Part shown: positions 10,440 through 11,079 of the stretch, one piece after another
Layout of the letters: every line of letters starts with the position of its first letter
Numbering within the stretch: the first letter of the stretch is position 1
Origin: an uncultured Pelagibacteraceae bacterium
Lineage (GTDB): Bacteria > Pseudomonadota > Alphaproteobacteria > Pelagibacterales > Pelagibacteraceae
Length of the DNA stretch: 34,696 bases
Assembly: GCA_902567945.1 (NCBI GenBank)
Contig: CACFOC010000010.1
Span: forward strand, 1 to 34,696
Reading direction: 5' to 3'
Notes under the pieces: generated by a model
Seen by the model: the letters and a program-made list of their open reading frames with translations, nothing else
What the model was told of the DNA's origin: nothing
The model's database searches: none
Made by a program: the position numbers and the translations under genes

Positions 10440-11016
10440 ATGACAAAATCAGATAAAAAAAATAAAGACCAGTCTTTACAGGAAGATAAAGACTTATCTA
10501 AGGAAAACGAAAAAGAGCAAATTCCCAAAAAAGAAGAATCAATTGAAGACAAACTTAAAAAAGCTGAAGATAAATTACTTAGAACAATGGCTGAAATGGA
10601 AAATCAAAGAAGAAGATTTGAAAAGGAAAGACAAGAAGCTTTTGAATTCGGTGGATTTAACTTTGCAAAAGAATCATTATCTTTGTTAGATAATATTGAA
10701 AGAGCCACAACATCATTTAAAAAATGATGAAAAATTAAAAAATAATAAAGATTTAGAAAAAATTATTGAGGGGATTGAAGTTGTAAAAAAAGACTTAATA
10801 TCGATCTTTAAAAAAAATGGTATTGAAGTAATTGAATGTGTTAATAAAAAATTTGATCCTAATTTTCATCAAGCAATGCTAGAAGTCGTAGATAGTTCAA
10901 AAGAACCTGGTACAGTTGTTCAAGAAATTCAAAAGGGATACTTAATGAAAAATAGATTGCTTAGACCTTCTTTGGTTGGTGTTACTAAAAAAAACGACAA
11001 AAAGAGTGAAAAATAG
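10440..11016 (+). CDS. grpE: nucleotide exchange factor GrpE, interrupted by a one-base frameshift
   Basis: The N-terminal half (10440-10727, 95 residues) runs through a charged region and the long helix (RTMAEMENQRRRFEKERQEA, NFAKESLSLLDNIERA). It stops at a TGA right after a run of six A at 10719-10724. The C-terminal half continues in the +1 frame to 11016, with KKNGIEVIECVNKKFDPNFHQAM, PGTVVQEIQKGYLMKNRLLRPSLVGV. Removing one A would join them into a 191-residue protein reading ...TSFKNDEKLK..., of normal GrpE size. GrpE releases ADP from DnaK. Since the joined protein is otherwise intact and adjoins dnaK and dnaJ, a sequencing or assembly indel is the likeliest cause. A real mutation or slippage remains possible. 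Upstream, TATAAC (10428-10433) could be a -10 box. Confidence 0.9.
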
Positions 11017-11049: not shown

Positions 11050-11079
11050 CTTGTACAAAATGAAAAAACACCCATATAG
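11050..11079 (+). promoter_or_regulatory. heat-shock (RpoH/sigma32-type) promoter of dnaK
   Basis: CTTGTAC at 11050-11056 is followed by 13 bp and then ACCCATATAG at 11070-11079. As I recall the E. coli dnaK P1 promoter it has CTTGATG, 13 bp, CCCCATTTAG, so element sequence and spacing agree closely. It also fits the alphaproteobacterial RpoH pattern of CTTG, about 17 bp, then a C-rich AT box. A transcript would start near 11085, about 15 nt before the dnaK ATG. Purine-rich AGGAAAAGGA (11081-11090) supplies the ribosome binding site. Confidence 0.7.

Follow-up and report, generated by a model that had tools for sequence, protein, structure and literature searches.

In an uncultured Pelagibacteraceae bacterium, the gene for GrpE (PF01025), the nucleotide exchange factor of DnaK, precedes dnaK and dnaJ as two adjoining halves that lie in different frames. 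The locus raises the question of whether this split exists in living cells, and how it could be borne there, or whether it arose on the way to the assembly. The window, meaning the whole stretch of DNA analysed here (34,696 nucleotides), is contig 10 of draft G000, which comprises 44 contigs and 869,001 bases and is rated 71.6% complete; among the genus-mates of the draft are metagenome bins and Pelagibacteraceae records from the AG- series.

The frame junction in grpE

The gene occupies positions 10440-11016, and its two frames meet at the run AAAAAA at 10719-10724. The N-terminal half (10440-10727, + strand) starts with the ATG at 10440 and consists of 95 codons and a 0-frame UGA, giving a product of 95 aa whose last residues are TTSFKK. 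Directly after the A run the 0 frame holds a tandem UGA UGA (10725-10730, + strand), and the C-terminal half continues in frame +1, where it extends from the first post-junction codon to its stop (10723-11016, + strand). Both halves score above the Pfam cut-off for PF01025, with 45.2 bits over profile positions 5-81 for the N-terminal half and 103.6 bits over positions 82-165 of 165 for the C-terminal half. The profile is covered by the two together, but not in a single continuous frame. A first-pass annotation, made from the letters of the window, had described two conserved grpE halves that differ in frame and join at an A6 run followed by TGA, and the open reading frames and profile matches agree with it. 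The halves are not a chance overlap of open reading frames; outside the junction both are well conserved, other signs of decay are absent, and the sole difference from GrpE here is a single extra base.

Reading the sequence with one A fewer gives an uninterrupted GrpE of 191 residues, in which SFKNDEK spans the junction, as the same annotation had proposed. Its further point, that repair of the frame needs a +1 (or -2) shift and that -1 slippage would be useless, also holds: a -1 shift after AAA AAA, read by hand, leads into ATG ATG AAA AAT TAA and so to a stop. Production of a split GrpE by re-initiation was considered and seems unlikely, given that the ATG at 10724 lies in the third frame and the only upstream start of the C-terminal frame in that open stretch is the TTG at 10696.

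The direction of the required shift and the slow UGA directly after the A run are what programmed +1 ribosomal frameshifting at AAA AAA UGA, as in prfB, would use. Against this, a search of the 34 bases that close with the run gave no hit for any of six short purine-rich words resembling a Shine-Dalgarno sequence, the fold on the downstream side does not stand out (-7.9 kcal/mol, z -0.85, with 41 of 200 shuffles as good), and the AAA AAA UGA arrangement is missing in 15 relatives. With these six words and these relatives, the locus shows neither the upstream Shine-Dalgarno-like stimulator nor the conserved site of the prfB type, and word search, fold and conservation gave no sign of a recoding signal at the junction. 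We give programmed frameshifting almost no credence.

grpE in related genomes

A GrpE match is present in 16 of the 23 genomes of the genus, this draft included. The other 15 loci are open through the site, where they read TTT or TTC, then AAA, then AAT (12 loci), AGT (2) or AAC (1). These in-frame codons imply a run of A5 in 13 relatives and of A4 in 2, so that the A6 of the window is one base above the commonest state. In the comparison with related grpE genes that the first-pass annotation had named as a check, all 15 same-genus loci are in frame at the site with a shorter A run, and the shift of the window occurs in 0 of these 15 relatives carrying GrpE.

Across the family, 347 of 397 genomes have a GrpE match, and the gene is split by one base in at least 2 of the 347, at different codons; this count is a lower bound drawn from the matches listed. 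The 13 family genomes inspected were chosen for having either two matches or a top match whose E-value was weaker than about 1e-36; splits near the gene ends may therefore be missed. The second split, in G337, is a +1 one-base gain at an A run (L200, G337:C23:60226-60705 with flanks) near the codons for EKEKEDA, about 30 residues upstream of the site in the window. Five further genomes (G161, G173, G304, G326 and G417) have partial GrpE hits, which we read as cut by contig ends, and the only hit in G227 is weak and lies in a frame of 245 aa. Two full copies are present in G260, and one full copy with a weak second hit in each of G259, G303, G405, G418 and G435. Among the named genome-contig loci, GrpE was found in 55 of 55 in the matches listed and in more than one frame in none, with partial matches at L235 (a contig edge) and L266; the record of the window itself may not be among these loci. 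In viral contigs, 345 stretches fit a pattern and none of them encodes a relative.

One-base shifts elsewhere in the draft

The draft, over 34 of its 44 contigs or 843,896 of 869,001 bases, was compared with 1,054,381 bases of its genus-mate G002, using ATG-started open reading frames of at least 90 codons and seeking proteins whose best match passes from one frame into another. Under the looser settings, alignments to the draft DNA were obtained for 581 G002 proteins, over 182,658 residues. They revealed 10 frame changes, 9 of which are exactly +1 and lie beside A or T runs of 6-9 bases, grpE included. This corresponds to 1.64 one-base shifts per 100 kb of aligned coding DNA. The tenth change, in a nucleotide-sugar dehydrogenase (contig C33, about 1648-2776), has an offset of -17 and is not a one-base shift. 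In-frame stops numbered 5 in this draft, 4 in G002 and 1 in each of two comparisons with G026.

The nine shifted genes are homologues of GrpE, SecA, SMC, PriA, CcmF/NrfE, UbiB, ThiG, XdhC and one unassigned protein; the names SMC and XdhC rest on scores below the NCBIfam cut-offs, in the case of SMC because the query is a 637-aa piece. The junctions lie at A6 in grpE and priA (the latter also at T7), at T7 in the ccmF/nrfE family gene, at A8 in secA, thiG and the gene for the unassigned protein, at T8 in smc and xdhC (the latter also at A7) and at T9 in ubiB, and the eight outside grpE are spread over contigs C1, C3, C6, C12, C15, C16, C21 and C25. The event in grpE is not exceptional in this draft, where eight others like it were found. 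An adaptive loss of grpE function was considered and rejected, because neither half is otherwise decayed and the same type of shift is present in further housekeeping genes of the draft.

Coding-strand A runs and T runs are hit alike, as an error blind to strand would do. The run lengths before the gain, judged by eye, are 5, 5, 6, 7, 7, 7, 7, 7 and 8 for the nine events, and the open reading frames contain 6153, 3180, 1737 and 890 runs of length 5, 6, 7 and 8, respectively. Runs of length 7 were struck most often per run, and a peak of this kind is what slippage of any origin would give.

In the reverse comparison there were 4 frame changes in 567 G002 proteins, of which 3 are +1, at A6, A7 and A9. 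The single-contig control G026, covered over 400,000 of 1,160,202 bases, had no one-base shift in 157 proteins, and the one frame change found there has an offset of 19. This zero is weakly informative, since only about 2.5 shifts would be expected at the rate of the draft (chance of zero about 0.08). For rpoC, matched in 111 of 128 genomes, at least two splits were seen by eye among the matches listed, one in G027 (L267; +1, at an A7 run) and one in G040 (L268; -1, at an A8 run). Of the 15 single-base shifts collected altogether, 14 add a base and 1 removes one (p about 0.001 in a two-sided binomial test), the 15 having been gathered in three ways and not as a random sample.

Origin of the extra base

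We favour a sequencing, amplification or assembly artefact as the source of the extra A in grpE, at odds of roughly three in four, because the same draft has eight more such slips in other genes. The one-base gain at the A run would date from whole-genome amplification, library preparation, sequencing or assembly, and would be absent from the genome of the living population, in which the grpE that precedes dnaK and dnaJ would be ordinary and intact. All nine shifts would then share one technical cause, and the draft would presumably be a single-cell or similar assembly. The grpE shift is private to one assembly, and similar errors occur elsewhere in it. Like homopolymer indel errors in single-cell and metagenome drafts, the shifts are one-base changes at A and T runs in unrelated genes, are private, and come at about the published rate. 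A single-cell workflow is described in a passage of PMC8443664 as leaving 3.0 indels per 100 kb, and the approximately 1.6 per 100 kb of this draft lies within that benchmark, which is one average; passages of PMC1560136 contained nothing on indel rates. The strong bias towards gains (14 of 15) sets the present shifts apart, as it is not described in the passages on such errors that were consulted. It counts against an artefact, and we cannot name a technical step that would force gains.

The main rival, which we consider possible but doubtful, is that the sequenced cell or strain really did gain one base recently, with grpE broken or soon to be purged. Replication slippage at A and T runs would go uncorrected in a cell without MutS, and none of 60 genomes, this draft and 59 relatives, gave a match to MutS (TIGR01070); control genomes were positive in 11 of 14 cases. 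In addition, mutS and mutL are missing from two SAR11 subclades according to passages of PMC12374537. With MutS not found, real mutations of run length gain in plausibility compared with most bacteria, and both the homopolymer at the grpE junction and the preference for runs of length 7 fit such an origin. However, nine simultaneous shifts that include homologues of secA, smc, priA and grpE would hardly leave a viable cell, which makes it unlikely that all are true losses in a living one, and each half of grpE is otherwise well conserved with no further decay.

A real extra A could also be tolerated if RNA polymerase or, less likely, the ribosome slipped at the run and some full-length GrpE was made. 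The halves are conserved and adjoin without loss, the genome has 29.3% G+C and many long A and T runs, several other junction runs in the draft are A8, T8 or T9, and rescue of homopolymer frameshifts is described for genes of Blochmannia and Buchnera, endosymbionts of ants and aphids, in passages of PMC3017870. Those genes resemble the present ones in that the genomes are AT-rich and reduced, the genes otherwise intact and the shifts one base long in A or T runs. In contrast to the unshared A6 of grpE, some of the shifts described there are shared by lineages, and they lie in long runs (those of at least 9 bases were counted). A run of six is short for the purpose, as the polymerase of Escherichia coli is reported in passages of PMC6260861 to slip detectably in reporters only from seven Ts or eight As, a threshold from which the SAR11 polymerase may differ; the same passages give 0.82% insertion at a T6 run. 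The fix needed here is the loss of one base in the RNA, whereas insertion is about threefold commoner than deletion (PMC6260861). The shift is also absent from the other members of the genus with grpE, and the split in G337 lies at another codon. Among the matches listed in a literature search, no paper had a title on slippage in SAR11, and a search on Pelagibacter single amplified genomes with frameshifts or indels gave none. On these comparisons rescue of grpE by slippage appears unlikely, and we regard it as less probable than a plain mutation.

A broader version, to which we attach about as little probability, holds that SAR11-type bacteria lacking MutS carry standing one-base gains in essential genes and tolerate them through an RNA polymerase slippier than that of E. 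coli. Under such a load grpE and the eight other genes might still give full-length protein, and the lean towards gains in 14 of 15 shifts would be a bias of mutation or of tolerance. The extra bases are either not in the cell or tolerated in it, and the former is the simpler reading, because the shifts are private and lie in unrelated genes, A runs and T runs are hit without distinction, and the rate is near the benchmark. The ranking given by the first-pass annotation, which put an indel artefact before a recent mutation and both before slippage, is supported by the genome-wide comparison, which favours the same order. The absence of MutS and the unexplained lean towards gains keep the rivals alive.

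The split of grpE is thus confirmed and an ordinary explanation is the most likely one, the noteworthy part being the set of nine +1 shifts in a lineage that lacks MutS. If they are artefacts, one-base errors can affect about 1-2% of compared genes in drafts of AT-rich uncultured bacteria, judging from 9 of 581 in this draft and 3 of 567 in its genus-mate G002. With such an error load, an essential gene that seems lost from a draft needs to be checked for shifts at A and T runs before the loss is believed. If the shifts are real, frameshifts tolerated by slippage would be extended from endosymbionts to very abundant free-living cells.

An element upstream of dnaK

Just upstream of dnaK, at 11050-11078, lies CTTGTA - 15 bases - CCCATATA, which resembles the consensus of heat-shock (sigma-32) promoters. 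The pattern has one match in the window and 0 in 100 shuffles. On account of this promoter-like element, dnaK may be expressed independently of grpE. Of 15 genus loci, a dnaK-start pattern selected 11, and in these a similar sequence precedes dnaK.
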